Of a stretch of DNA of 64,000 bases, positions 11,745 to 50,600 are shown piece after piece. The notes below the pieces were generated by a model, which saw only the letters and a list, made by a program, of their open reading frames with translations, ran no database searches and was not told the origin of the DNA. The position numbers and the translations under genes are program-made. The stretch is from Myxococcaceae bacterium (lineage in GTDB: Bacteria > Myxococcota > Myxococcia > Myxococcales > Myxococcaceae), in contig JAIBBQ010000006.1 of the NCBI GenBank assembly GCA_019694595.1, forward strand, positions 1 through 64,000. Direction: 5' to 3'. Position 1 is the stretch's first letter. The number at the start of each line of letters is the position of its first letter.

Positions 11745-12998
11745 ATGCCCACTTCGGAATTCGACTTCGTCGACGGCGATGACGGCGGCCAGTTCGTGCT
11801 CGTCGGTGGCCCCATGGTCACCCTGCGCGTGCATCTCGCGAAAGGAGAGGTCGACGCCGCCGTGCGGCTCTACGAGGAGACCGGCGCCGTGGTGCGGGCG
11901 GAGCTCCTCACCGAGGCCGAGACCGCGTCCTTCGACACCAAGAAGAACATCGCCCAGCTGTTCCGGAAGGCGCGCGACTTCGCCGCTGCCGCCAAGGTGT
12001 TCCGCGCCTGCAAGCTCGACGGCGACGCCGCCGCTGCGTACGAGGCCGCCAGCGACTTCGCGGAGGCCGCCGCCGCCTGGGTGCGCGCGGGCGACCTCAC
12101 CCGCGGCGCCGCCGCCTTCGAGCGCGCCGGGAAGACCGAGCAGGCGCTCGAGCTCTACCGCAAGGCGGGCGCCACCGACCGCGTCGCCGAGGGCCTCGCC
12201 CGCAGCAAGCGCTTCCTCGAGGCCGCCGAGGAGTTCCGCCGGCTGGGCAACACCCACGCCGAGTTCGAGGCGCTGCGCTCCGGCTTCGCCGAGGAGCCCG
12301 GCAACGTCGAGGTGGTCAGCCGGCTCGCCGAGGTGATGCTGCAGCACGGCCGCAGCGAGAAGACCGCGCTCCTGCTCACCGAGACCGTGCGCCGCACGCC
12401 CGCCGCCATGTCCAACTCCCGCTTCGTGGGCCTGCTCGCCGCCGCGCTCGAGGCCGTGGGCAACGCCGAGGCCGCCGCCAAGGTGCGCGCCCGGCTCAAG
12501 GGCCTCCCCCCCGCGCCCGCCGCGCCGCCGGTGGTCCAGGGCAAGCTCCCCGCCGCCGAGCCGGGCTCCGACGCCTACGGCTTCCTGAAGGCGCTGCCGA
12601 TGTTCGCCGACCTGAGCTTCGACGACATGAAGTCGCTCTACCGGGTGTGCACGCTGCACGCGTTCCAGCCGGGCCAGCACCTCATCGAGCCCGGTCAGCC
12701 GGGGCGCGGGCTCTTCCTCATCGTCAGCGGCCAGGTCGAGGTCTTCGCGGGGGCCGATGCGTCGGCGCGCCTGCTCAACACCCTGGGCGTCGGCGGCTAC
12801 GTGGGAGAGATCTCCCTGCTGCAGGACGGGCCCACCTCGGCCCGTGTGACCGCGCGCACCGCGGTGAAGGTGCTCTTCATCTCCCGCGAGGCCTTCAACC
12901 TCTTCATGTTCGGCACCCCGGCCGCGGCGCTGCACATCTACAAGCTCTTCACCCTGAACCTGGCCGAGCGGGTGCGGGTGCTCTCCGCGGCGAAGTAG
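11745..12998 (+). CDS. TPR-like protein with C-terminal CNB domain
   Basis: 417 residues, no signal or membrane segment. Residues about 60-260 are repeated Ala-rich helix pairs of TPR/SEL1 character. Residues about 285-410 are a CNB domain with a recognisable cassette (GGYVGEISLL) but with Thr-Ser-Ala where the ligand-binding Arg-x-Ala normally stands, so binding of cAMP or cGMP is doubtful. It may be a scaffold whose CNB domain serves protein contacts. Its stop codon ends at 12998, directly touching the stop of the convergent CNB gene, with no spacer. Confidence 0.85.
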   Translation: MPTSEFDFVDGDDGGQFVLVGGPMVTLRVHLAKGEVDAAVRLYEETGAVVRAELLTEAETASFDTKKNIAQLFRKARDFAAAAKVFRACKLDGDAAAAYEAASDFAEAAAAWVRAGDLTRGAAAFERAGKTEQALELYRKAGATDRVAEGLARSKRFLEAAEEFRRLGNTHAEFEALRSGFAEEPGNVEVVSRLAEVMLQHGRSEKTALLLTETVRRTPAAMSNSRFVGLLAAALEAVGNAEAAAKVRARLKGLPPAPAAPPVVQGKLPAAEPGSDAYGFLKALPMFADLSFDDMKSLYRVCTLHAFQPGQHLIEPGQPGRGLFLIVSGQVEVFAGADASARLLNTLGVGGYVGEISLLQDGPTSARVTARTAVKVLFISREAFNLFMFGTPAAALHIYKLFTLNLAERVRVLSAAK

Positions 12999-14267
12999 TC
13001 AGACGCGGCGGTCGGGCCCCGCCGGCAGGCCGTGGGCCCGGTCGTACCGCGCGGTGCGCTCGAGCCGCGCGTTCGCCAGGTGGCGCAGCGTGACCGCGGC
13101 GCCCGCGTCCTTCATCACCAGCGCCTTGAAGTCCGCCGCCGCCAGCTCGAGCGTGAGCACCGGCGCGCTCGCGGTCACCGTCGCCGTCGCCGGTCCGCCG
13201 GTGAGAATGGAGATCTCCCCGAAGAGGTCCCCTTCCCGCAGGTCGGGGTAGCTGTTGCCGCTGGAGTGCTTCACCGCGCACACGCCGCGCAGGAGCACGT
13301 GCACCGCCTCGGGCGCCTGGCCTTCCGCGATGATGGTGGCGCCTGCCGCCCAGGTCTTCGGCTGGAACGCCCGCGCGAGTTCCTTCTTCGCGCCGTCCTG
13401 CAGACCGCGCAGCACCGGGCTCGCCCGCATCATGTTGGCGAGCAGCCGCTCCCGGTAGAACGCGTCGAGCACCTCGCCCACCCGCGGGTGCTTGGCCACC
13501 ACCTGGTCCATCGCCGCGCGCGGGAACTCGAGCACGGTGGCCGAGTCGTCGGTCACCACCGTCGCCACCCGCAGGCCCTTCGAGACCAGCGCCACCTCGC
13601 CGAAGATCTCCCCCGCCGACATCGACGCCACCCGGCGCTCGTCGGACGTGCCGTGGCCGCGGAAGACGCCCACCGTGCCTTCCACCAGCGCGAACATCGA
13701 CTCCCCCGGGGCGCCTTCCTTCACGATGAGCTCGCCCACGCCGTACGCGCGGACCTCCATCGCCGAGGCCAGCACCTCGCGCAGCTCCGCCTCACCCAGC
13801 ATCGAGAAGAGCGGAATCGACGGCAGCCCGCTGGCCGTGGGCGGCGCCACCACCTCGAGCTCGATGTCGATGGCGTCCTCGACGGCCGCGGGCGCTGCCG
13901 CAGCCACCGGCGCCACCGGGACCGCGGCCGGGCGGACCGGGAGCGGCTTCTCGCTCTTGGCGAAGAGCGAGGCGATCAGCGCCAACGTGCGCTGGTGCTT
14001 GGGCTCGATGGCCAGGATCAGCCGGCACACCGCGGACGCCTTGAAGAACTGCCCCTGCTCCGCGTACCGGCGGGCCACGTCCTCGTACGCCGCGACCGCG
14101 TCGACGCTCTTGCCCAGCTTCTGCAGCAGCTCGGCGACCTTCTGGCGCGCCGCGACGTCGTCGGCCGCCACCTCCACCACCTTGCGCCACGCCTCCAGCG
14201 CCGCGGGCAGCTTGCCCTTCGCGGTCAGCTGCATCGCCTTGTCCTTCAGCTCACGCACGTCGCTCAT
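12999..14267 (-). CDS. TPR protein with two tandem CNB domains
   Basis: 422 residues from ATG 14267, preceded by GAGGGGGAA 2 bases upstream; an in-frame ATG at 14336 lacks such a site. Residues 5-110 are TPR helices, 115-150 an Ala/Pro linker, then CNB-1 (about 155-275) and CNB-2 (about 285-400). CNB-1 has the canonical cassette FGEVAL with Arg233 in RVAT, so it should bind cyclic nucleotide. CNB-2 has FGEISI but Ala in place of Arg (PATAT), so it probably does not, similar to the neighbouring + strand protein. It is the last gene of the six-gene cyclase cluster (16 bp after the Cys-rich gene), and is a likely cytoplasmic effector of the cyclase. Confidence 0.87.
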   Translation of the reverse strand: MSDVRELKDKAMQLTAKGKLPAALEAWRKVVEVAADDVAARQKVAELLQKLGKSVDAVAAYEDVARRYAEQGQFFKASAVCRLILAIEPKHQRTLALIASLFAKSEKPLPVRPAAVPVAPVAAAAPAAVEDAIDIELEVVAPPTASGLPSIPLFSMLGEAELREVLASAMEVRAYGVGELIVKEGAPGESMFALVEGTVGVFRGHGTSDERRVASMSAGEIFGEVALVSKGLRVATVVTDDSATVLEFPRAAMDQVVAKHPRVGEVLDAFYRERLLANMMRASPVLRGLQDGAKKELARAFQPKTWAAGATIIAEGQAPEAVHVLLRGVCAVKHSSGNSYPDLREGDLFGEISILTGGPATATVTASAPVLTLELAAADFKALVMKDAGAAVTLRHLANARLERTARYDRAHGLPAGPDRRV

Positions 14268-14283
14268 GGTTCCCCCTCGCGCT

Positions 14284-15456
14284 TCACTGGCACGTTCCCG
14301 CGTCGCACACCTGGCCACCGGTGCACGCCACGCCACACGCGCCGCAGTTCGCCAGGTCCGCCTTCAGGTCCACCTCGCAGCCGTTCTGCAGCTGCGTGTC
14401 GCAGTCCGCGAACCCGGTCTCGCAACCCGCGCGCGAACAGGTGCCGAAGTTGCAGAGCCGCGGCGCGTGCTCCACCGGAACGCAGGGCTGGAAGCAGCCG
14501 CCGCAGTGCTCGGGGTCGTGCAGGGTGTCGACGCACAGGCCGGCGTCGCAGGTGTCGAGCGGCGGCGTGCAGGTGGTGCCGCACTGCCCGTTGACGCACA
14601 CGCTCCCCGCGTCGCACGGCTGGTTGCAGCCGCCGCAGTTGAGCTGGTCGGACTCCACCCGCACGCAGGTGCCTCCGCAGGGCACGGTGCCCGGGGTGCA
14701 GCTGGGCAGACAGAAGCCGCCGACGCACAAGCCGCCTCCGGTGCAGCCCGCGTCACACCCGCCGCAGTGGGCGACGTTGAACTGCAGATCGACGCACGAG
14801 CCGCCGCACGCCGTCAGTGGCGCCGTGCAGCCCGCGAGACACGCGCCGCCGCTGCACACGCTGCCGGCGTCACAGGTCCGCCCGCAGGCGCCGCAGTTGA
14901 GCGGGTCGAACAGGGTGTCCGCGCAGCCGCCCGCGCACGCCACGGTGGGCGCCCGGCAGGTCGTTCCGCAGTGGCCGTCACGGCAGCGACCGACGGCGCA
15001 GTCGGTGTCGCGCACGCACCCCTGGCCGGCGTCACACGGCGCACACCCCGCCCCGCCGCAGTCCACGTCGGTCTCGGTGCCGTTGCGCGCGCGATCGCCG
15101 CAGCTCGCCGCGGCACAGCGGCCGGCGTCGCACACCAGGCTCGCGCAGTCCGAGGAAACGCCACACGTCCGCCCGACCGCACACGCGGGACACGGGCCGC
15201 CACAGTCCACGTCGGACTCCGGTCCGGTGCGCTGCCCGTCCTGGCAGGAGGACGCCACGCACACCCGCCCCGCGCACGCACCGCTCGCACAGTCCGCGGG
15301 GACCCGGCAGGTCAGCGCCTGCGCACACGGCGTGCACCGGGTGCCGCCACAGTCCACGTCCGACTCGTCGCCGTTCTTCAGGCCGTCGGAGCAGCTCGGC
15401 GTCGACGTGACGTGGCACGCTCCGAGCGCGAAGCCCACCAGCGCGCCGATCGCCAT
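14284..15456 (-). CDS. Cys-rich repeat lipoprotein (second of a tandem pair)
   Basis: 390 residues from ATG 15456. The signal ends at a lipobox-like GACH (Cys about 14). Three to four N-terminal repeats of the type [15 protein letters not shown]...C..C (about 25-170) resemble Cys-rich repeats of myxobacterial surface proteins, followed by about six CGG..C repeats of the C..GGxCVD..xDxxxCGGC type. Cys is the dominant residue, so many disulfides in an exported protein are expected. It is closely related in layout to the upstream gene at 15471-16841; the pair is probably a gene duplication. Short spacing on both sides places it within the cyclase operon. Function unknown; an extracellular sensing or structural role is inferred from position only. 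Confidence 0.8.
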
Positions 15457-41248: not shown

Positions 41249-42484
41249 TCACGCAGCGGGTTGGTACCCGGCCTTCGCTCGATTGCCTTTGCCCGTTCCA
41301 GGGTGAGGCGTGTGGACCCCAACAAGTTGTCGGAATCGTCGCGGGACGGCCTGTGGCTTCACGGCGACCGGAGGGCTTCCTCGGTCAGGTGGGATGAGCT
41401 TGGGGCTGACGCTCACCCGGCTCTCACCGAGCAGCTGGCGCCGAACCTCTCGCCCAATGACCTCTGCCAAGAGCGACGGCACCGCATTGCCGAGCTGCTT
41501 GTGCACCGAGGCGTGCTTGCCCGTGATGACGACATCGTCCGGAAAGGTCTGAAGCCGAGCAAGCTCGCGCATGCTCAGTCTGCGGTTGTTCCAGTGGAAG
41601 GGCCCAACAGCAGGGCCAGGCTGCGCCTGAATCGTCCAGGAGGGGCGGTTCTTCGCGAGCTTCAACAGGAACGTCCAGTAGCGCCGCCGCCAGCCAAAGA
41701 GAGGCAGGCCGCCTCCGCGCTCGGTGTGCCACAGGTAGTTCTGGCCCTCCGGGATCGTTGGCAACAGGTCCGCCCACTTGCCGCGCATGGCCAAGAGTTC
41801 CGCGTCGTCGGGCTCAGGCAGGTCTCCCAAGGCATCCCACGCCGTGCGAAGCGGCGGAAGCGACCTGACATCCAGGAGCATCGGTTGGTCGTCCACAGCG
41901 GCGAACCTCGCCTCCGGGAACTTGAATTTCGCGCCATCGCGAGCAGCTACCATGAAGAAGCGCTCACGAAGTTGCGGTACGCCGTAGTCGGCCGCGTTCA
42001 GGACCTGGAAGTGCGGGACGTAGTTGCTCCGCGTCTTCTTGTTGATGGCCGCAATGCGTCGGAGCAGAAGTTGAAGCCCTTCGTCCTTGCCGGAGAAGGC
42101 CAGTCCGCCAACGTTCTCGAGCACGAAGACCCGCGGCAGCGCTTCCTCGACGATGCGCAGGTATGCGCCGAGGGTGTCCGACCGGGGGTCATCGAGACGG
42201 GCGGAGTCACCTCGCGCCCAGTACCCTGCCTTCGAAAACGGTTGGCAGGGGGGGCCTCCGATCAGCAGGTCTGCCTCACGAGGCTTGAGCTTGCCGGTCG
42301 CGAGCAACTCGCTGGTGGGCACGTCGAAGACACTTCGCTCGATCACAGGCCAGGAACGATTGCGCCGGAGCGTCTCGCAGCAGTCATGGTCGAACTCCAA
42401 GGCGACCGCGGTCTCGAAGCCTGCCGCTTCGAACCCGTAGTCCATGCCGCCTGCGCCACTGAAGAGACTGATGAGCCTGCCCAT
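41249..42484 (-). CDS. DNA (cytosine-5-)-methyltransferase of a type II RM system
   Basis: 411 residues from ATG 42484. The C5-MTase motifs are in order: I (FSGAGGMDYGF, AdoMet), IV (GGPPCQPFS, catalytic Cys80), VI (ENVGGL), VIII (QLRERFF), then after a variable target-recognition region IX (MRELARLQTFPDD) and X (KQLGNAVP). The enzyme should methylate cytosine in a short site and so protect host DNA. The last about 50 residues after motif X are basic and not typical. It follows a PD-(D/E)xK gene by 32 bp on the same strand. Codon use is less GC-extreme than in neighbouring genes. Confidence 0.93.
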   Translation of the reverse strand: MGRLISLFSGAGGMDYGFEAAGFETAVALEFDHDCCETLRRNRSWPVIERSVFDVPTSELLATGKLKPREADLLIGGPPCQPFSKAGYWARGDSARLDDPRSDTLGAYLRIVEEALPRVFVLENVGGLAFSGKDEGLQLLLRRIAAINKKTRSNYVPHFQVLNAADYGVPQLRERFFMVAARDGAKFKFPEARFAAVDDQPMLLDVRSLPPLRTAWDALGDLPEPDDAELLAMRGKWADLLPTIPEGQNYLWHTERGGGLPLFGWRRRYWTFLLKLAKNRPSWTIQAQPGPAVGPFHWNNRRLSMRELARLQTFPDDVVITGKHASVHKQLGNAVPSLLAEVIGREVRRQLLGESRVSVSPKLIPPDRGSPPVAVKPQAVPRRFRQLVGVHTPHPGTGKGNRAKAGYQPAA

Positions 42485-42516
42485 GCGGCGGCTCCTAGCA
42501 CAGCGGTCTGACAGGG

Positions 42517-43695
42517 TCAGGAGGCGGCGACCCGAAGTACCTGCACGACGTCGGTGCTCCAGCGATCGTCGACCTTCACGTTGTTCGACAGCTTGCTTCG
42601 GCAACGCATGTGGCGGTCGAGCCTGCTCGGCACCACGTACTTGAACTCCCACTTCTCGCTGACGGCATGGAGACAGGCGGCAATGACGTCGAACTCCGAG
42701 GGCGCGTAGTAGCGCGAACACGGGTCGCTCTTCGATGCCCTGGTGCGCTGAAAGTCGACTCGAGCCAGCCCCTCTGCCGTCGTCTTCCTCAGAACGTTCT
42801 TGCACTCCACAGTGAGCAGGGAGCCTTCGAACTTGAGGCTGATGTCGGGGCCACCCTCTTCGTCCACACGAAGGCATTCGCTGACGCCCGGCACTCGCTC
42901 GAGTCGCTTCACGAGGTGGGACTCAGCGACCCAGCCACGCACCGCCATCTTGAGTCTGCGGGCACTCGCGATGAGGTCAAGAACACCCGACTCCGACATT
43001 TCAAACTCGGCGGCGAGCGCATGCAGGCGGTCGGACGAAACCGCCGGAACCACGGAGCCCCGCTTCACGGCAGTTGGCCATCTGCTGGGCTCGGCATCAT
43101 TCATCCGCTCAGCGAGCAACATGCGATGCCCCTGGTCCTCGCCGAGAGCCTCCCGCTCGAAGCGGACGTATCGAAGGAAGGAGTGGGCTGTTCCCCCGAC
43201 GAGTACCTCGACCGGCTTGTCATCATTTGCACGGTGGTCGCGCTCCCATGAGTGCCAGCCGTGACGAAGAATCTGAGCGACCTCTTCCTCCTTGTACTCG
43301 ATGGAGATGAAGAACTTCGTCGGGCTGTGAAGGACCGGATCGGCGCCCACGAAGATGCCCCGCTCGGGGTCGATGCCGCAGAAGAGCGTGGTGTAGAGCA
43401 GGTATGGGTCCTGCCAGATATTGTGGAGCCTTCGATCGTCTGGCCCGTACTTCACCTGGAACCGGTGCTCGTCGTCGGGACGATTCTTGGTGAGCCGGGA
43501 GTTCGCGAAGAAGGCGTACACCACGATACCCATGCGCTCCGACGTCGGAGTCTCGAAGGTGATCCTGAAGGGGGCCCGGCTCGGTTCGCTGGCTTGGAGG
43601 ATGCGGCATCCGCTGGCCACCAGCCCCTCAAGGATGAACCGAAGCAACGGCTCCTTGTCACTCTTGCTCACGGAGTATTCGCGGAACTCGGCCAT
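42517..43695 (-). CDS. PD-(D/E)xK type II restriction endonuclease
   Basis: 392 residues. The nuclease core is Pro283-Asp284 (GGPD) with Glu297-Cys-Lys299 after 13 residues, the spacing of a PD-(D/E)xK catalytic site. The N-terminal about 220 residues are probably the DNA recognition part, and a helical stretch at about 215-265 may bind DNA. It lies directly before the C5-MTase, so they form a restriction-modification pair, by context. I do not recognise the specific target family. The recognition sequence cannot be predicted. Confidence 0.85.
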   Translation of the reverse strand: MAEFREYSVSKSDKEPLLRFILEGLVASGCRILQASEPSRAPFRITFETPTSERMGIVVYAFFANSRLTKNRPDDEHRFQVKYGPDDRRLHNIWQDPYLLYTTLFCGIDPERGIFVGADPVLHSPTKFFISIEYKEEEVAQILRHGWHSWERDHRANDDKPVEVLVGGTAHSFLRYVRFEREALGEDQGHRMLLAERMNDAEPSRWPTAVKRGSVVPAVSSDRLHALAAEFEMSESGVLDLIASARRLKMAVRGWVAESHLVKRLERVPGVSECLRVDEEGGPDISLKFEGSLLTVECKNVLRKTTAEGLARVDFQRTRASKSDPCSRYYAPSEFDVIAACLHAVSEKWEFKYVVPSRLDRHMRCRSKLSNNVKVDDRWSTDVVQVLRVAAS

Positions 43696-43844: not shown

Positions 43845-44582
43845 TCAGGGCCACGGATACCGGACCACGAGCCAAGGCATCCAGCCTCGGATCCCGTGCT
43901 GTGTTTCACCCGCATGGGCGTCCAGCTCCCGACAGCATGAGTAGGCGGCTTCGAATGAGTCGATGAGGCCGTCGTTGTTCGGGACGACGCCCACGGCTCG
44001 GCAGACCGCCTGTTCGTCGAGGTGCCTCGACTCCGGGCTGTTGAAGCAAGAGCCGGCCTCATTGATGAGGATCTCGTGCCCGAGGACCTCCCCTCCCTCG
44101 ACCAGAGGCGCTGAGCGAATACACGCGACGACGTGAGCGCCACTCGCACCGATGGGCGCAGCGCCTGGTGGCGACTGGGGCGGCTCCGACGCCTCACTGA
44201 AGGACCGAAGCAAAGTTCGATGAATCCCCAGACCCCAGATTTCGAGACCTCGCGCATTGGGGAGCACGAGCCGAGCGGCGTCCTGCGCCGCCTTCAGCGT
44301 GAAGAACACGCTCCAGGCGCCGAACTCCCGATCGAAGCCGGCGTCGGCCCAGCGCATGACTTCGTCGAGTTGGTCCTCTGAGATTCCAAAGATCGAAGCC
44401 CGTTCGACCCTGCTCTCCCTCGTATCGTCGCACCACGAGAGGGCCCATGAGTCCGGAAAGAAGCTCCGTTGCGAATGGTCCGAGGCCAGCGTGACCCGCC
44501 TCAGCTCTGTGCCCGTGCAATCCCGAGCGCCCGTCCACCGAGACACGAAGTAGCCCGCGGCGACGTAGTCCTCGATCCTCAT
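43845..44582 (-). CDS. Hypothetical protein duplicated nearby
   Basis: 245 residues, no signal peptide, few strong features; several Cys and a central WSVFFTLKAAQDAARLVLPNARGLEIWGLG block suggest a globular enzyme-like domain. The first 18 residues (MRIEDYVAAGYFVSRWTG) are matched by a damaged copy at 46148-46215. It is followed by 149 bp and the RE gene. The encoded protein may be an accessory of the RM region or an unrelated passenger. I recognise no family. Confidence 0.6.
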   Translation of the reverse strand: MRIEDYVAAGYFVSRWTGARDCTGTELRRVTLASDHSQRSFFPDSWALSWCDDTRESRVERASIFGISEDQLDEVMRWADAGFDREFGAWSVFFTLKAAQDAARLVLPNARGLEIWGLGIHRTLLRSFSEASEPPQSPPGAAPIGASGAHVVACIRSAPLVEGGEVLGHEILINEAGSCFNSPESRHLDEQAVCRAVGVVPNNDGLIDSFEAAYSCCRELDAHAGETQHGIRGWMPWLVVRYPWP

Positions 44583-44652
44583 GAAGCCCTCGGCGACCCT
44601 TCATGCACTTTGACGGCACCATCCCAGTAACGGTGGCGAGCTGAAACGGGTC

Positions 44653-44733
44653 GTGGTGAGAATCGCAGGAGTGCTGCTCGGCGTCCTAGCCGCTAGCTGC
44701 CGAGACAAGAACGCCTTCAAGGTGCTGCCGTCA
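44653..44733 (+). pseudogene. Possible 5' remnant of a lipoprotein gene
   Basis: From GTG 44653 the frame reads VRIAGVLLGVLAASCRDKNAF..., a textbook signal with lipobox LAASC. The frame continues only until it meets the antisense 3' end of the gene at 44731, after which it becomes low-complexity Asp/Arg text, so the original gene seems broken at about 44730. The length of the original gene is unknown. This is inference from the signal alone. Confidence 0.35.
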
Positions 44734-45273
44734 GTTCACGGTCAGCTTCGCGCAGACGATGCCGACGATGAGCGACGAGACCACCTGGCCGGTGCCGACG
44801 TTGTAGCACTTGACGTCGTACCCGTTCGCACCGGTCGTGCCGTTCACCACCGGGCCTGAGCTGTAGATCCCGTGACCGCTGTTGGCGCAGCTCGTGGACC
44901 AGTTGATGACGTTCTCCCCGACGGCGTTGCAGAAGCAGGGGCTGCTGCTGCAGGCCTTCTTGTATGCGCCGATGTCGAGGCCTCCACCGACCACCACCTG
45001 ATTGGGCAGCGAGACGACCGAGCCGCTCGCCGGTGTGATGGTGTTGGTGCTCAGCGTCCCGGCGACGGTGACGTTCGCAGAGCCGAGGGTGCCGACCTTC
45101 TGCGTCACCAGATCGACGATCTTCTGAATGTTCGCGTTCATCTCCCCGGCGACCGCCGGCTCGTTGGGGCAGAAGTGCGTGAAGCCCAGGCCCGTGGGGA
45201 AGCCGTTGGGAGCGGCGCACATCCCCGCCCAGACTTTCAACGAGACCTGAACCTGTGGTGAAATCAACAGCAT
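44731..45273 (-). CDS. Hypothetical protein, probably 5'-truncated
   Basis: About 180 residues from ATG 45273. The N-terminus lacks the signal peptide expected before the QVSLKVWAGMC segment, so the original start may have been lost. The body has Cys and Gly/Thr/Val-rich beta-strand repeats (GTLSTNTITP, VVSLPNQVVV, VVNGTTGANGYDVKCYN), like exported pilus-tip or surface proteins. The ATG and the ATG of the + strand neighbour share the CATG at 45271-45274. Function unknown. Because the start is not secure, the size given is a minimum. Confidence 0.45.
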   Translation of the reverse strand: MLLISPQVQVSLKVWAGMCAAPNGFPTGLGFTHFCPNEPAVAGEMNANIQKIVDLVTQKVGTLGSANVTVAGTLSTNTITPASGSVVSLPNQVVVGGGLDIGAYKKACSSSPCFCNAVGENVINWSTSCANSGHGIYSSGPVVNGTTGANGYDVKCYNVGTGQVVSSLIVGIVCAKLTVN

Positions 45274-46081
45274 GCAACGAAACATGCCAGAGAGCGTCGC
45301 CGTCCGCACAACGCGCACGTATGCCACGTTTGTAACGGCTACGGTGCTGATGCTGCTCGGGCTGGCGTGCATCACTATCAAGCAGCGACTGGGTACCGAT
45401 TCACAGCTCGCGCCCTACTTGAGCGACATTTCCAGCGCCTTCTTGGCGAGTGGGCTGTTGTCCATGCTTTTCAAGGTTCTAGAGGAGCGGGAATTCCAAC
45501 AAAACCTTCGCCACATGCTTGGCATCCACGACAGCATCGAGGAGCGCGGCCTCGTTCGCATCTTGCCCGAGGTGCAAGCGTTCAACTTCGCGGGACTGAT
45601 CGAGGACGCTGATTTTCTCGTTGTTGTGATGAACGACGGACAGCGCTGGGTCGGCAACCACTCCGTCGCCCTTCAGGCGAGGTTTTCAAAGGACTCCACG
45701 ACCGAGTTTTTCACGGTTGATCCTGACTCGTCGTTCATCGAGTCGCTTGCACGAAAGACCGGAGGAACCGCCGCAGAGCTGAAGCAAAAGATCGAGAAGG
45801 CATGGGCTCTCCTCGAGGACGCCTATGAGAAGTCATCGAAGAAGGGCCGACTTAGAATTTACAAGCTCAAGACATTTCCCACCAAGACGATCTTCCTTAC
45901 AGAGAAGTTGCTGATTGAGACACCGTACCAGACTGCCTCTGGCCGGGCGCAGATTCCGGTGTTCGCCTACGAGAAAAACGCACGCGACGACTCCATCTAC
46001 GAGTTCGTTCACCGCGACATTGAGGCTGTACGCAAGGAGGCGCTGCTCGCGAAGCAACTTCCGGCACCACCCGCCGCTTGA
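45272..46081 (+). CDS. Two-TM membrane protein with PLD-like cytosolic domain
   Basis: 269 residues. Two hydrophobic helices (about 20-36 and 50-66) are followed by a soluble domain with alternating strands and helices: FLVVVMNDGQRWV, EFFTVDPDSSFIESLARKTG, RLRIYKLKTFPTKTIFLTEKLLIETPYQ and EFVHRDIEAV. This order, with a long helix between strands, resembles phospholipase D-superfamily-like domains that have lost the HKD motif. The local sequence is visibly poorer in GC than the genome average seen elsewhere. It lies between RM genes, so a defence role such as a membrane effector is a possibility, not shown. Confidence 0.7.
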   Translation: MQRNMPESVAVRTTRTYATFVTATVLMLLGLACITIKQRLGTDSQLAPYLSDISSAFLASGLLSMLFKVLEEREFQQNLRHMLGIHDSIEERGLVRILPEVQAFNFAGLIEDADFLVVVMNDGQRWVGNHSVALQARFSKDSTTEFFTVDPDSSFIESLARKTGGTAAELKQKIEKAWALLEDAYEKSSKKGRLRIYKLKTFPTKTIFLTEKLLIETPYQTASGRAQIPVFAYEKNARDDSIYEFVHRDIEAVRKEALLAKQLPAPPAA

Positions 46082-46147: not shown

Positions 46148-46215
46148 CGTGCAATGAGATCACCGGCCCACTGAGAGACGAGGTAGCCCGAGGCGACGTA
46201 GTCCTCGAGCCTCAT
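46148..46215 (-). pseudogene. Truncated duplicate of the 43845-44582 gene start
   Basis: From ATG 46215 leftwards the frame reads MRLEDYVASGYLVSQWAG, nearly the same as the start of the 44582 gene. The nucleotide match covers about 68 bp, including the flanking GTAGCCCG-AGGCGACGTAGTCCTCGA portion. Beyond about 46148 the similarity ends in a tract with an 8-G run (46130-46137) and no longer resembles the parent. A copy cut off after about 22 codons is the simplest reading. Confidence 0.65.
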
Positions 46216-46341
46216 GCCTCCTCCCTTCGCACTTGCAAGCGCAGTAACCAGCTCAGGTCGACCGTTACGATGGCCAAACGCGCGCCGTGAGCCCAAACAA
46301 TAGTGCCGACTAGGCTCTGGGGGCCCACCACGCACCTTCGT

Positions 46342-47496
46342 TCAAGTTGCGCGGCCCAGCGGATGAGTTGATGCCGAATCTGTCGTAGTGCCTTCGCCGG
46401 AGAGTTCCGCGATCTCCTTCTCGAGGAAGGCGCGCTTGTCCGCCTGCATGTTCTTCATCACCTCGTCGACGTCGACCAGCGCCGCCTGCTCGAAAAGTTT
46501 GGCGAGGTCGTCAGCGTGCCAAGACTGTTCGGGAACGCCCCGCAGCGGCAACTGCCTGTTGGGGGCGGGCCGCTTGCTGAATTCAAAAACCAACTTCCTT
46601 AGAGAATACCGCTTCCGTCCCTCATGGAATGTCCTGTCGTAGGCGGCATGTCGGTATTTGCGACACTCCCATTCAAAGCTGTGTCCCTGCTCGATGATCC
46701 ACTTCGCCGTCACCTGGGCTAGCCCTTCTTCGGGATGCCGCTCCAGCACCTCCTTCGCGGTCGAGACCCTGTATCTATCAATACAATGTTCTTTAACCTT
46801 CAGATGCTTTTCGAGGTTCTGCTGAAAAAACTCTCTAAGCGTCTCAAGCACCGAGGGATCTGTCTCTGGAGTGCCCGCACGAAAGGTCACCATCATTGCC
46901 CACGGCCCAGCATGAGAACCCTGAAGTTGGAAGCACTCTCTCACGCCCTTAAGAAACGGCGGATAGGGTCCATCGTTCCTATTAGCAATGTTGGTAGTCA
47001 GATCCAGGTTGATTACGTCATACGGTGCACAGGCACGGATGGCCGAGCCATTCTCTGACTTCGGATCGACCAGCGCCTTGAGCACATCCCCACAAAGCAG
47101 TTCACGCAGGCGAGGTTCGGCGGTCATCATCAGACCGAACTGCGTGGGGTCGTACTCGAAACCCACAACATCTAAGCGCTCTTCTCCGTCGACACTGGTT
47201 CGAGCCAGCAGTTTTTCCTTCTCGTAGAGACCAATCTCGAAGCGGTGGCGGCCAGGCAGGGTGAGTAGACGTAGCGGGCGCGACAACTCCTGTCTAATTT
47301 TTTTGACAGTCTTCAACCACAGCTCGCGACGCACCCAGTGTTTCGTAACGTCGTTGAACTCCCTCGCCCGTTCGATCATTACTGCATTTTCGGGTGCGTT
47401 CCGAAAAAACGAGCCTTCGTGTTCCTCGATCCGCTTCTCCTGCGCATCTTCATCAAATGTCTTGAGAAGCGCATTGATGTCGTTTTCCGTGCTCAT
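46342..47496 (-). CDS. Unknown protein, third member of the Dcm-GHKL triad
   Basis: 384 residues from ATG 47496, which overlaps the preceding stop by ATGA; an in-frame start further upstream lies inside the ATPase gene. The middle shows a Rossmann/AdoMet-methyltransferase-like run (VVGFEYDP, LLCGDVLKAL, PYDVINLDLTT), where the last block resembles a methyltransferase motif IV (D-x-x-N-L-D). A glycine-rich loop I could not identify. The C-terminal helices are charged. It might be a degenerate methyltransferase or a nuclease-associated factor; neither is established. Sequence composition is lower in GC than flanking genes, in line with horizontal gain. Confidence 0.75.
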   Translation of the reverse strand: MSTENDINALLKTFDEDAQEKRIEEHEGSFFRNAPENAVMIERAREFNDVTKHWVRRELWLKTVKKIRQELSRPLRLLTLPGRHRFEIGLYEKEKLLARTSVDGEERLDVVGFEYDPTQFGLMMTAEPRLRELLCGDVLKALVDPKSENGSAIRACAPYDVINLDLTTNIANRNDGPYPPFLKGVRECFQLQGSHAGPWAMMVTFRAGTPETDPSVLETLREFFQQNLEKHLKVKEHCIDRYRVSTAKEVLERHPEEGLAQVTAKWIIEQGHSFEWECRKYRHAAYDRTFHEGRKRYSLRKLVFEFSKRPAPNRQLPLRGVPEQSWHADDLAKLFEQAALVDVDEVMKNMQADKRAFLEKEIAELSGEGTTTDSASTHPLGRAT

Positions 47497-49199
47497 GAAC
47501 GCACAGCAGCTGCGAGAGCATCGAACAAGCCGGCAGCCTCCTCCGCAGAGACTGAGTCCCAAATATCATAGGCCGCTAGCGCCGTCGCGACACGCAGCAA
47601 ACGACGCCGACCGTCCTTTTTGAGGCCATAGGTCATACTAACCCTATCGAGTTCGGTCTTCGAAATGTGCGCTTGCCCGTCAACCACGGTCACAAGTTGT
47701 TGGTAGAGACTTACAGTTTTGCGATCCGGGACCGAATGGGTAGCGGGGCGGCTCGGGCTCTGCTTCGAGTTTGAACGCGACTGAGATGACGACCGCGGCT
47801 TTACACCGATCTGTGCAGGAGCCTTGGAGAGTGCGGCCGAAAGCGCCTGCTCGTCGGAAGCAAGCCGGGCTGCATCCTTCTGCGTCTTGATTATGTTTTG
47901 CCGGCTCTTCTGCCCCGGAAAGACGGTGGTACGAAGGAGATTCCAGAGCTGGGCGCGGATCGCGAGGTAGTGCGGGTCAGTCTCACGAAAGCTCGAGCGG
48001 TCTATATTGAGGGCACTTTCAAGACCATCTTTCACATACAGCTCTGCTGATACCTGCCCGAACTTGATCCCTTCGTCGTATGGGTAACCCATAAGCGACT
48101 TGTCGTATGGGCCAACACCTACACCGCGAACGCGCAGCTGAACACCGTTGAGTTCATGAGCATCAACGTGCGGCTGTTGCACGTACACGTACCCTCCAAC
48201 CTCGACCTTCCTGCCGGCAACCTCTTGCTTCCAATTGACCGGGTACAAGATCGGGTCAGGCCCCGCGTACCCGAGTGCCCGCCGATTCGGGAAAAGAATA
48301 GGCCGACGCACGTCAAGCCCGTCAAACTTCACTATGAAGTTCTCAGGCTCCTCCAGTCGGATTCCATTGGCGCCGTCGATGTTTCGCTCGTCCGACTTGA
48401 ATGGGCCTCCATCTAGATAACGGACCGGACACAGCAAACCAAGCTCCCACGCGAGGTAGTGGTAGCTGTCGAGTACGATGTCGGCTCGCTTGTTGTTCTG
48501 CACGAGTTCCACGACCTCGCGAAAGGTCTTTGCTCTGTTCTTCAGGGTGAAGTGAGGCTTCGAGCCCAAAAACTCCCGAGTGCGTCCGAGCATCTCACTG
48601 ATCAGGCCCGCCTTCGGATCGGGTACAGTGACTACGGTGTAATGGCTTGAGGCCGACTCCGGGAGGCCCTCTGCAAACCGCACCGTTCCTATTTCAACCT
48701 CTTCGTCGTCAGAGCCACCAGAACCAAGTACGCGCAGCGCTGCATCCTCTTTGTGAAACGGGCGAAGATCGACTTCGGCGAGGAACCGCGTTCGCTCGCC
48801 TTTCACTGTCGACGACACATAGAACCGCTGCCCGAGCTGAGCCACCGCAAGCAATCCGATGCCAATGCGTCCAATTAGCTTGCGCTGATAAATGGGCGAG
48901 AGCCCGGTCGGCGTCTCAAGTCGCTTTCTGCTACCCCCTATATGTTGGAGCACCTCGAGGAAGCGCTCAAGCCGCATTCCGGTACCATTGTCTCGCACAA
49001 CCAACTGCCGAAATCGCGGCGCGTCGGTCTCGACCAGGATTTCGGTAGCATCGGCATCGTATCCATTAGCGACCAATTCTTTCAGGGCCGCCGCAGGCGT
49101 TCGGTAGATACCCGTGCTGATGTCCGCGATGATCTTTTCGGACGCAGTAATTGTTACACGTTTGGCGTCGGCGCCAAGTTGAGTTCTTGTTCCACTCAT
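47493..49199 (-). CDS. GHKL (HSP90/MutL/MORC-like) ATPase in RM context
   Basis: 568 residues. The N-terminal HATPase module shows the E-x3-N-x2-D box (Glu41, Asn45, Asp48), DNGTGM at 70-75, and the GRIGIG loop at 110-115. A beta-rich region at about 230-380 follows, consistent with an S5 domain, as in MutL and MORC. The C-terminal about 140 residues are basic and Ser-rich, then a small helical domain. ATG overlaps the Dcm stop (ATGA), so it is translated with it. Published analysis of MutL homologues in prokaryotic restriction-modification systems (ancestors of MORC proteins) describes this type next to C5-methyltransferases; their biochemical role is not clear to me. ATP-driven clamp or loading of a nuclease is one idea. 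Confidence 0.85.
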   Translation of the reverse strand: MSGTRTQLGADAKRVTITASEKIIADISTGIYRTPAAALKELVANGYDADATEILVETDAPRFRQLVVRDNGTGMRLERFLEVLQHIGGSRKRLETPTGLSPIYQRKLIGRIGIGLLAVAQLGQRFYVSSTVKGERTRFLAEVDLRPFHKEDAALRVLGSGGSDDEEVEIGTVRFAEGLPESASSHYTVVTVPDPKAGLISEMLGRTREFLGSKPHFTLKNRAKTFREVVELVQNNKRADIVLDSYHYLAWELGLLCPVRYLDGGPFKSDERNIDGANGIRLEEPENFIVKFDGLDVRRPILFPNRRALGYAGPDPILYPVNWKQEVAGRKVEVGGYVYVQQPHVDAHELNGVQLRVRGVGVGPYDKSLMGYPYDEGIKFGQVSAELYVKDGLESALNIDRSSFRETDPHYLAIRAQLWNLLRTTVFPGQKSRQNIIKTQKDAARLASDEQALSAALSKAPAQIGVKPRSSSQSRSNSKQSPSRPATHSVPDRKTVSLYQQLVTVVDGQAHISKTELDRVSMTYGLKKDGRRRLLRVATALAAYDIWDSVSAEEAAGLFDALAAAVRS

Positions 49200-50200
49200 C
49201 GGGCACCAGCGGGAGTACCGAGAGCACTACGCAAACGCCTCGCCAATGCGTACGCGACTGGCGGAGGAACGGCGTTCGACACTTGTGTCACTTGTTCTGA
49301 AAAGTTACCCCGCAGGATGTACCTTCTGGGGAAGCCCTGAAGCAACATCGCCTCGTAAATCGACAGTCGGCGAGCGCCGCTTGGGTGGACGTGTATTTCG
49401 CGGTTACCGTAGGCCACAGTTGGGCTTGGCTTGGACCAGACGAGGCGACGAAAGGATCTCCATCTATTAAACCGACGCTCAACAAACCGCGGAGATTTGG
49501 GGGTCATTGTCCAATGGTTTGGATGATGACCGACCTCCTCAGCGGTCACGCCACGCCTAAAAAATGTCGGGGCCGGAAGTCCTCGGATTGCGTCCGCAAC
49601 AGTTCGAGTCCTTGATCGTCCCTGTGGGAAGACGAACCGAGCTGAACTCAGACGCTTCTCGTGAAGGCCTACGAGAAAGAGGCGCCGCCGGTCCTGAGGA
49701 ACACCGAAGTCGCGAGCATTGAGTTCGGCTGTGTGAACTGTAAAACCAGCTTCGCGGAATGCTCTCTTCAGCTGGCCGAAGAACCGAATGTTTCTTGTGA
49801 TGTCGACAACGTTCTCGAAGACGAAGAAATCGACACCTACTTCCGCGTCGAGACTCTTAAGCAATTTCGCATAGGAGAACGGCAGACGGTTCCGTGGATC
49901 GTTCGAATCGCGGCTCGCGTTACCACGAGAGAATCCCTGGCAAGGGGGCCCACCGATTACTCCGACAGGTCCGCGAACACCGCGAGTTCGAAGCTCTGAG
50001 GCAACATGCCCTGCCCTTAGCGCACTGACATCTCCCCGTATCGCAACCACACTCTTAGAGTTCGCATTCACTGTCTCAACTGCAGCGGACTCGATGTCAA
50101 CGGCGAGCACAACGTCAAAGCCTGCTTTTCGGAACCCAAGGTCGAGGCCTCCGGCCCCTGCGAAGAAGCTGACCACGCACCGGTTGTCAGACCGCCCCAT
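49196..50200 (-). CDS. DNA (cytosine-5-)-methyltransferase, first gene of the triad
   Basis: 334 residues from ATG 50200. C5-MTase motifs: I (FFAGAGGLDLGF), IV (GGPPCQGFS, catalytic Cys87), VI (FENVVD), VIII (QDRRRLF), IX (RRLSIYEAMLLQGFP) and X (QVSNAVPP). The protein is compact with a short target-recognition region. It is separate from the MTase at 41249-42484, and the motif I/IV wording differs, so it is not a recent duplicate. The 4-bp overlap with the ATPase gene suggests that both act in one complex or pathway. Target site unknown. Confidence 0.92.
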   Translation of the reverse strand: MGRSDNRCVVSFFAGAGGLDLGFRKAGFDVVLAVDIESAAVETVNANSKSVVAIRGDVSALRAGHVASELRTRGVRGPVGVIGGPPCQGFSRGNASRDSNDPRNRLPFSYAKLLKSLDAEVGVDFFVFENVVDITRNIRFFGQLKRAFREAGFTVHTAELNARDFGVPQDRRRLFLVGLHEKRLSSARFVFPQGRSRTRTVADAIRGLPAPTFFRRGVTAEEVGHHPNHWTMTPKSPRFVERRFNRWRSFRRLVWSKPSPTVAYGNREIHVHPSGARRLSIYEAMLLQGFPRRYILRGNFSEQVTQVSNAVPPPVAYALARRLRSALGTPAGAR

Positions 50201-50474
50201 CGCCACCTCCAAGTAGAGCGTGAATCTTTGCATAATGACTCATGTTTTCCCAGGAGAGCGACGGCATCTGAGGCTACAGATGTCGAAGATGGGCGCGATC
50301 AGACAATGTCGACCAAGAGCAGTTGGCCTTCAGTTGCCGACCGCAGCCGTCGCTAAGAAGTGCCCGATGAACCGGGCGTCGAGGCTTTGGGCCTTTTTGG
50401 GAAGCCGTTGGTGGTCACGCCGACAACCAAGCAGCACTACCGTGCCGATGGCTCGCTAAGCCGGTCGTCGACGC
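50201..50474. other. Intergenic stretch before the initiator tRNA terminator
   Basis: The 325-bp gap between the methyltransferase start and the tRNA holds no supported gene. It contains the methyltransferase leader (RBS-like GGAGGTGGCG just before its ATG) and an AT-richer spot at 50225-50250 which could hold a promoter. No integrase, direct repeat or attachment-site copy was found in it. Confidence 0.6.

Positions 50475-50525: not shown

Positions 50526-50600
<75 letters not shown>

Follow-up and report, generated by a model that had tools for sequence, protein, structure and literature searches.

C5-cytosine DNA methyltransferases (Dcm) are encoded beside ATPases of the GHKL type in several described kinds of locus. 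Type II restriction–modification (RM) systems of the HgiDII/BbrUII (SalI) type (NF050001) combine a Dcm with a protein that joins GHKL, S5 and PD-(D/E)XK modules. In the HEF_HK/Response_reg_2 loci (Bellieny-Rabelo et al. 2021, PMC8011034) a Dcm is accompanied by a GHKL protein and a further partner. RM operons of the prokaryotic MORC/paraMORC type (Iyer, Abhiman and Aravind 2008, PMC2292703) contain a GHKL–S5 ATPase along with a methylase, and the text of that paper proposes ATP-driven DNA looping. BREX, as a passage of PMC9122589 describes it, is a methylation-guided defence with no apparent nuclease. Here, we analyse a stretch of 64,000 nucleotides from a Myxococcaceae bacterium (GenBank assembly GCA_019694595.1, contig JAIBBQ010000006.1, positions 1 to 64,000; hereafter the window) that carries a triad of genes for a Dcm, a GHKL ATPase and a third protein. 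We take this triad, with a probability of about 0.62, to be a self-contained, mobile, RM-like unit that acts as an ATP-dependent restriction or exclusion defence system.

Architecture of the triad beside known Dcm–GHKL loci

The three genes are intact and lie on the minus strand in the order Dcm, GHKL ATPase, third protein. As an earlier sequence-only reading of this DNA had reported, they are joined by two ATGA start/stop overlaps (Table 1). That reading had also called the methyltransferase intact and all nucleotide-binding boxes of the ATPase present, and both statements stand. The Dcm has the PCQ, ENV and QxRxR motifs, its catalytic motifs are invariant in an alignment of 23 homologues, and position 50200 is an in-frame internal ATG of its open reading frame (ORF) and a possible alternative start. 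Likewise, the N-box (E41, N45), D70-G72-G74 and GxxGIGL of the ATPase are invariant among its 23 aligned homologues.

The assignment of the ATPase to the MutL/MORC-like enzymes of RM-type loci, also made from the sequence alone, is supported at the level of GHKL/paraMORC-type proteins. In NCBIfam profiles, its N-terminal part is similar to BbrUII/HgiDII restriction enzymes and to MutL. Its AlphaFold model (predicted template modelling score, pTM, 0.65) matches structures of Hsp90/TRAP1, MORC3, MORC2 and MutL. The GHKL motifs are followed, in the model, by an S5-type transducer domain of the paraMORC type. Read by eye, the alignment lacks the MORC-specific GhXhhpXXRhl motif in S5, and the corresponding segment is NGVxLRI.... 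The C-terminal part consists of a linker and helices; the alignment has no conserved nuclease residues there, and Pfam recognises no nuclease domain.

With the HgiDII/BbrUII type, the triad shares an adjacent C5-methylase, an N-terminal GHKL module (the ATPase hits NF050001 at E=5e-20, over residues 29-139 only), frequent Vsr genes nearby and a presence on viral contigs. However, the ATPase scores 71.5 bits against a NF050001 cut-off of 550, whereas genuine members reach 658-729 bits. It also lacks the C-terminal PD-(D/E)XK domain, which in the relatives shows the pattern GRxDL..ExKRP (alignments by eye, Pfam). Moreover, the triad always has a separate methyltransferase-fold protein, which the HgiDII-type loci examined never have. 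The gene order is that of the two HEF_HK/Response_reg_2 loci compared (L141 and L142), but their GHKL protein has about 1000 amino acids (aa) and their third protein 555-617 aa. A hidden Markov model (HMM) of the triad's third protein finds no match at E<=10 in either locus, and Pfam finds neither PF19191 (HEF_HK) nor PF19192 (Response_reg_2) in the triad proteins at E<=1. On these grounds, the third protein was rejected as a Response_reg_2 homologue, and the comparison suggests that Dcm–GHKL pairs have acquired several independent third partners. With the paraMORC operons, the triad has in common a GHKL–S5 ATPase beside a methylase. In the text of PMC2292703, however, those ATPases are paired with helicases and/or nucleases of the restriction endonuclease fold, HNH or Vsr type, and no third partner of methyltransferase fold is described there. 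Because the triad thus fails a defining feature of each known neighbour, we regard it as distinct within the Dcm–GHKL systems. The exact gene set had not been recognised from the sequence either, and in the open-licence literature (figures excluded) we found no paper that describes it.

Linkage, mobility and genomic setting

The triad occurs at 22 further loci, which gives 23 in all and 20 non-redundant ones at <90% ATPase identity, the window included; these counts partly reflect related contigs. Its hosts are Myxococcota, one Planctomycetota metagenome-assembled genome (MAG), Gammaproteobacteria and prophages. In a profile search of 195 genomes from the phylum, 2 have the third family: the window genome and a second one (G081), in which a GHKL ATPase and a Dcm once more precede the third gene (locus L006). 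Used on its own in a contig scan, the third protein of the window gave no match. With the aligned C-terminal block of the ATPase as the query, triads appeared in a Myxococcales MAG, the Planctomycetota MAG, Dyella and viral contigs, and at every one of these loci the third gene lies directly after the ATPase with a Dcm adjacent. A scan of viral contigs with the whole ATPase placed the third gene in 18/18 members of the clade and in 0/62 other GHKL loci. Clade ATPases score >740 bits (except one split in two ORFs) versus 38-76 bits at the other 62 loci, almost all of which adjoin a Dcm; those sampled are of the BbrUII/HgiDII type, and nearly all of these end in a PD-(D/E)XK domain. Because the query was the ATPase alone, the presence of the third gene cannot be put down to ascertainment. 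Searches that start from the third gene likewise find it only beside the ATPase. It is present in 2 of the 369 genomes of Dyella's class, one being the Dyella genome itself, and is therefore rare in that class.

The two genes have also diverged together. Over the 23 triads, pairwise identities of ATPase and third protein correlate at r=0.974, versus 0.734 for ATPase and Dcm. ATPase and third gene overlap in nearly all relatives, and in all 23 triads they either overlap or almost touch; the Dcm is convergent in two loci. Taken together, these patterns make the ATPase and the third protein one evolutionary unit, with the Dcm as a looser partner; the third protein does not sit there by chance. 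A single broken member was seen, a prophage triad (L045/L023, 2246-4230) whose ATPase is split into two ORFs of 417 and 243 aa.

The window ATPase is 70-73% identical to the copies in the Myxococcales and Planctomycetota MAGs and about 32% identical to the G081 copy of its own family, which implies horizontal transfer. Close DNA copies of the triad were sought among 60 relatives, and the window alone has one. In G081, the triad by itself makes up a 4,502-bp insert (L006 4359-8860), flanked by a 595-bp direct duplication of 97.5% identity (L006 3764-4358 and 8861-9455) whose sequence is that of the 3' portion of a LysR gene. In three relatives the site is uninterrupted and holds the 595-bp stretch only once, and a fourth agrees. 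A passage of PMC3031569 that cites Nobusato 2000 and Furuta 2010 describes how RM systems can move by insertion with target duplications that are long and variable. The mismatches between the two repeats cluster at both ends, as if one copy had arrived with the insert or been patched.

Elsewhere, the triad adjoins phage integrases, CI-type repressors, and tail and tape-measure genes, which marks it as prophage cargo. Three triad loci (L016, L048, L053) also have a Vsr endonuclease gene, as do many HgiDII-type loci, which is expected of an RM system with a C5-methylase. The neighbour of the triad in the Myxococcales MAG is a Schlafen/AlbA-AAA ATPase gene. In L048, HNH endonuclease and ThiF-family genes stand behind the triad (11844-14643), possibly as a further defence cluster.

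In the window, the triad belongs to an island whose G+C content (0.57-0.61 vs 0.70-0.74 around it) is lower than that of its surroundings, as had been noted from the sequence; the genome itself is about 7.3 Mb in 394 contigs. A pattern search within the window found no repeat of the end of the bordering tRNA-Met gene that could serve as an attachment site. When the flanks of the island were used to look for its empty site within the family of the window genome, most matches were kinase paralogues and tandem copies of tRNA-Met. The island holds a second RM-like pair, a Dcm (41249-42517) and, just upstream of it, a 392-aa protein (42517-43695, minus strand) with an MTaX1 domain (PF20296) and a weak PD-(D/E)XK match; together they are probably a type II system. 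A 59-nt stretch occurs twice at 85% identity. One copy (44525-44583) is the start of a 245-aa ORF without known function (43845-44582, MRIEDYVAAGYFVSRW), and the other (46158-46216), immediately downstream of the triad, is what remains of a similar gene after truncation. Between both methylase systems, the ORFs at 44731-45381 (minus strand) and 45272-46081 (plus strand) have no Pfam or NCBIfam assignment.

Table 1. Coordinates of the triad, its junctions, the bordering tRNA gene and the loci used for comparison
Feature	Position	Strand	Details
Dcm (C5-cytosine DNA methyltransferase), gene 1	49196-50233	-	345 aa; PF00145 E=6e-49; TIGR00675 152 bits, above its cut-off
GHKL (MutL/MORC/Hsp90-type) ATPase, gene 2	47493-49199	-	568 aa; PF13589 HATPase_c_3 E=4e-15
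Third protein, gene 3	46342-47496	-	384 aa; divergent PP_RS20740 family, NF047698 E=6e-26
ATGA start/stop overlap, Dcm–ATPase	49196-49199	-	Sequence; plus strand reads TCAT
ATGA start/stop overlap, ATPase–third protein	47493-47496	-	Sequence; plus strand reads TCAT
tRNA-Met (CAT)	50526-50600	-	ARAGORN; borders the low-G+C island, its 3' end facing the island
Dcm–GHKL–Response_reg_2 loci compared	L141 6260-11979; L142 3610-9512

Family, fold and conserved residues of the third protein

The sequence-only reading had made its proposal depend on conserved linkage and on the third protein not belonging to a known, unrelated family. Linkage proved complete, and the only family matched is NF047698, of unknown function. 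By profile, the window copy is homologous to this family; at 91.7 bits, it falls below the curated equivalog cut-off of 200 bits, versus 270-393 bits for relatives, with other triad members reaching 390. Judged on these scores, it is a divergent subfamily member and not an equivalog. The only paper found that names PP_RS20740, after which the family is called, is a furfural-tolerance screen in Pseudomonas putida (PMC9630843), where the protein is treated as hypothetical and its function as unstudied. Searches of Pfam, PADLOC-DB and PHROGs gave no match to the third protein. Neither tblastn against GenBank phages and plasmids nor blastn against E. coli genomes returned one, and a sequence search of solved structures with the third family gave nothing at E<=1.

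The AlphaFold model of the third protein (pTM 0.71; residues 48-340 mostly usable) shows an alternating order of helices and strands with a beta hairpin at the end. Its best Foldseek matches in the PDB are almost all class I S-adenosylmethionine (SAM) methyltransferases, and viral matches agree. As modelled, the protein has a Rossmann-like, seven-strand class I methyltransferase fold, so the methyltransferase-like core that had been suggested from the sequence was right. Equally, the remark that no nuclease motif was visible is borne out, as no nuclease motif or fold was found in this protein or in the ATPase.

Across the 23 third proteins, K52, R56, W60, L80, G112, D160, N163, D165, Q192, W199 and T204 are invariant, and P81, G82, S147, R206 and D344 nearly so. 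The SAM loop reads (L/F)xLPG in place of the GxGxG of motif I, and the motif II position is N in most copies and E, D or M in the rest (E in the window copy). This non-canonical loop, together with the usual loss of the motif II acid to N, makes cofactor use by the third protein doubtful. The motif IV/VI face is strongly conserved. Most of the invariant residues (K52, R56, W60, D160, N163, D165, Q192, W199, T204) would be expected on the substrate side, a placement that follows from methyltransferase anatomy rather than from measured distances. Two further identities were rejected: a second-strand DNA methylase (M2), as there is no DPPY or PCQ motif, and a split-off nuclease domain of HgiDII enzymes, given a hhalign probability of 0.1%.

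Proposed function and its alternatives

In the mechanism that we propose, the Dcm, with its intact motifs, would methylate cognate cytosines of the host genome and so mark self. The GHKL ATPase would be a MutL/MORC-type clamp, expected to dimerise. Complete (100%) linkage, overlapping junctions and co-divergence suggest that it acts with the third protein as one complex. Most likely, the third protein would be the DNA-reading subunit, engaging unmodified sites and triggering an ATP-driven closure of the clamp. After closure, a cryptic active site could cleave the incoming DNA, or the DNA could be blocked without any nuclease, and we rate cutting and exclusion without cutting about equal. Prophage cargo, islands and RM-like mobility point to a probable anti-phage role, and we also count the second Dcm with its MTaX1/PD-(D/E)XK partner in the same island for the defence reading.

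Several points weigh against a defence system. No nuclease motif was found in any of the three proteins, and no phenotype is known for any member of the triad family. The third protein has no independent defence annotation because it has no match in PADLOC-DB or among GenBank phages and plasmids, and both structure models are moderate by their pTM. In addition, the only effect published for a family member is a higher furfural tolerance of P. putida that overexpresses PP_RS20740 with the V338F mutation (PMC9630843), which could make the triad a metabolic or stress-tolerance gene set. We consider that highly improbable because a Dcm and a MutL-like ATPase obligately accompany the third protein, and in view of the location in prophages and islands, the patchy distribution over the phylum and the mobility by target duplication. 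The third protein could also be an active methyltransferase that adds a second DNA, RNA or protein modification, so that the triad would modify or regulate rather than defend. The class I fold of the model and the strong conservation of LPG and G112 around the cofactor site fit this, but it is unlikely: motif I lacks GxGxG, the motif II acid is mostly N, a DPPY-type motif IV is missing and no Pfam methyltransferase profile matches.

The remaining alternatives are sharper versions of the defence reading itself, each of them possible without being favoured. One is classical ATP-dependent restriction, in which the third protein or the middle to C-terminal region of the ATPase would be a cryptic nuclease whose active site is new and which takes the place of the PD-(D/E)XK domain in HgiDII-type enzymes. 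The sister two-gene systems do have a nuclease fused to GHKL, the RM-type mobility and Vsr association fit, and the invariant D160, N163, D165, Q192 and K52 of the third protein could bind metal. However, the fold matches are methyltransferases, not nucleases, and the third protein has no homology to HgiDII-type enzymes. The earlier idea of the third protein as the source of the nuclease is therefore unsupported by the fold and by the profile comparison with PD-(D/E)XK relatives, and it stays unproven because no nuclease was recognised. The other version is exclusion or silencing free of any nuclease, BREX-like or similar to eukaryotic MORC, in which the clamp would trap or compact unmethylated DNA under the guidance of a methyltransferase-fold reader. 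The lack of a recognised nuclease in the triad, an ATPase model closest to Hsp90, MORC3, MORC2 and MutL clamps, and the precedent of BREX as sketched in PMC9122589 argue for it, but DNA compaction or a block of transcription has no direct support and related GHKL enzymes bear nucleases. Somewhat more speculatively still, a degenerate methyltransferase may read unmodified DNA and load a MORC/MutL-type ATP clamp, so that the invader is trapped or silenced without a nuclease; the triad would then be a minimal bacterial counterpart of MORC silencing, made of three genes.

For the PP_RS20740/NF047698 family, whose function is unknown, the triad provides a firm functional context. It also adds a third architecture of Dcm–GHKL loci, beside the HgiDII-type RM systems and the HEF_HK/Response_reg_2 type. 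As a self-contained unit of 4.5 kb that can be cloned whole, it makes the role of MutL/MORC-like ATPases in nuclease-free restriction loci testable.

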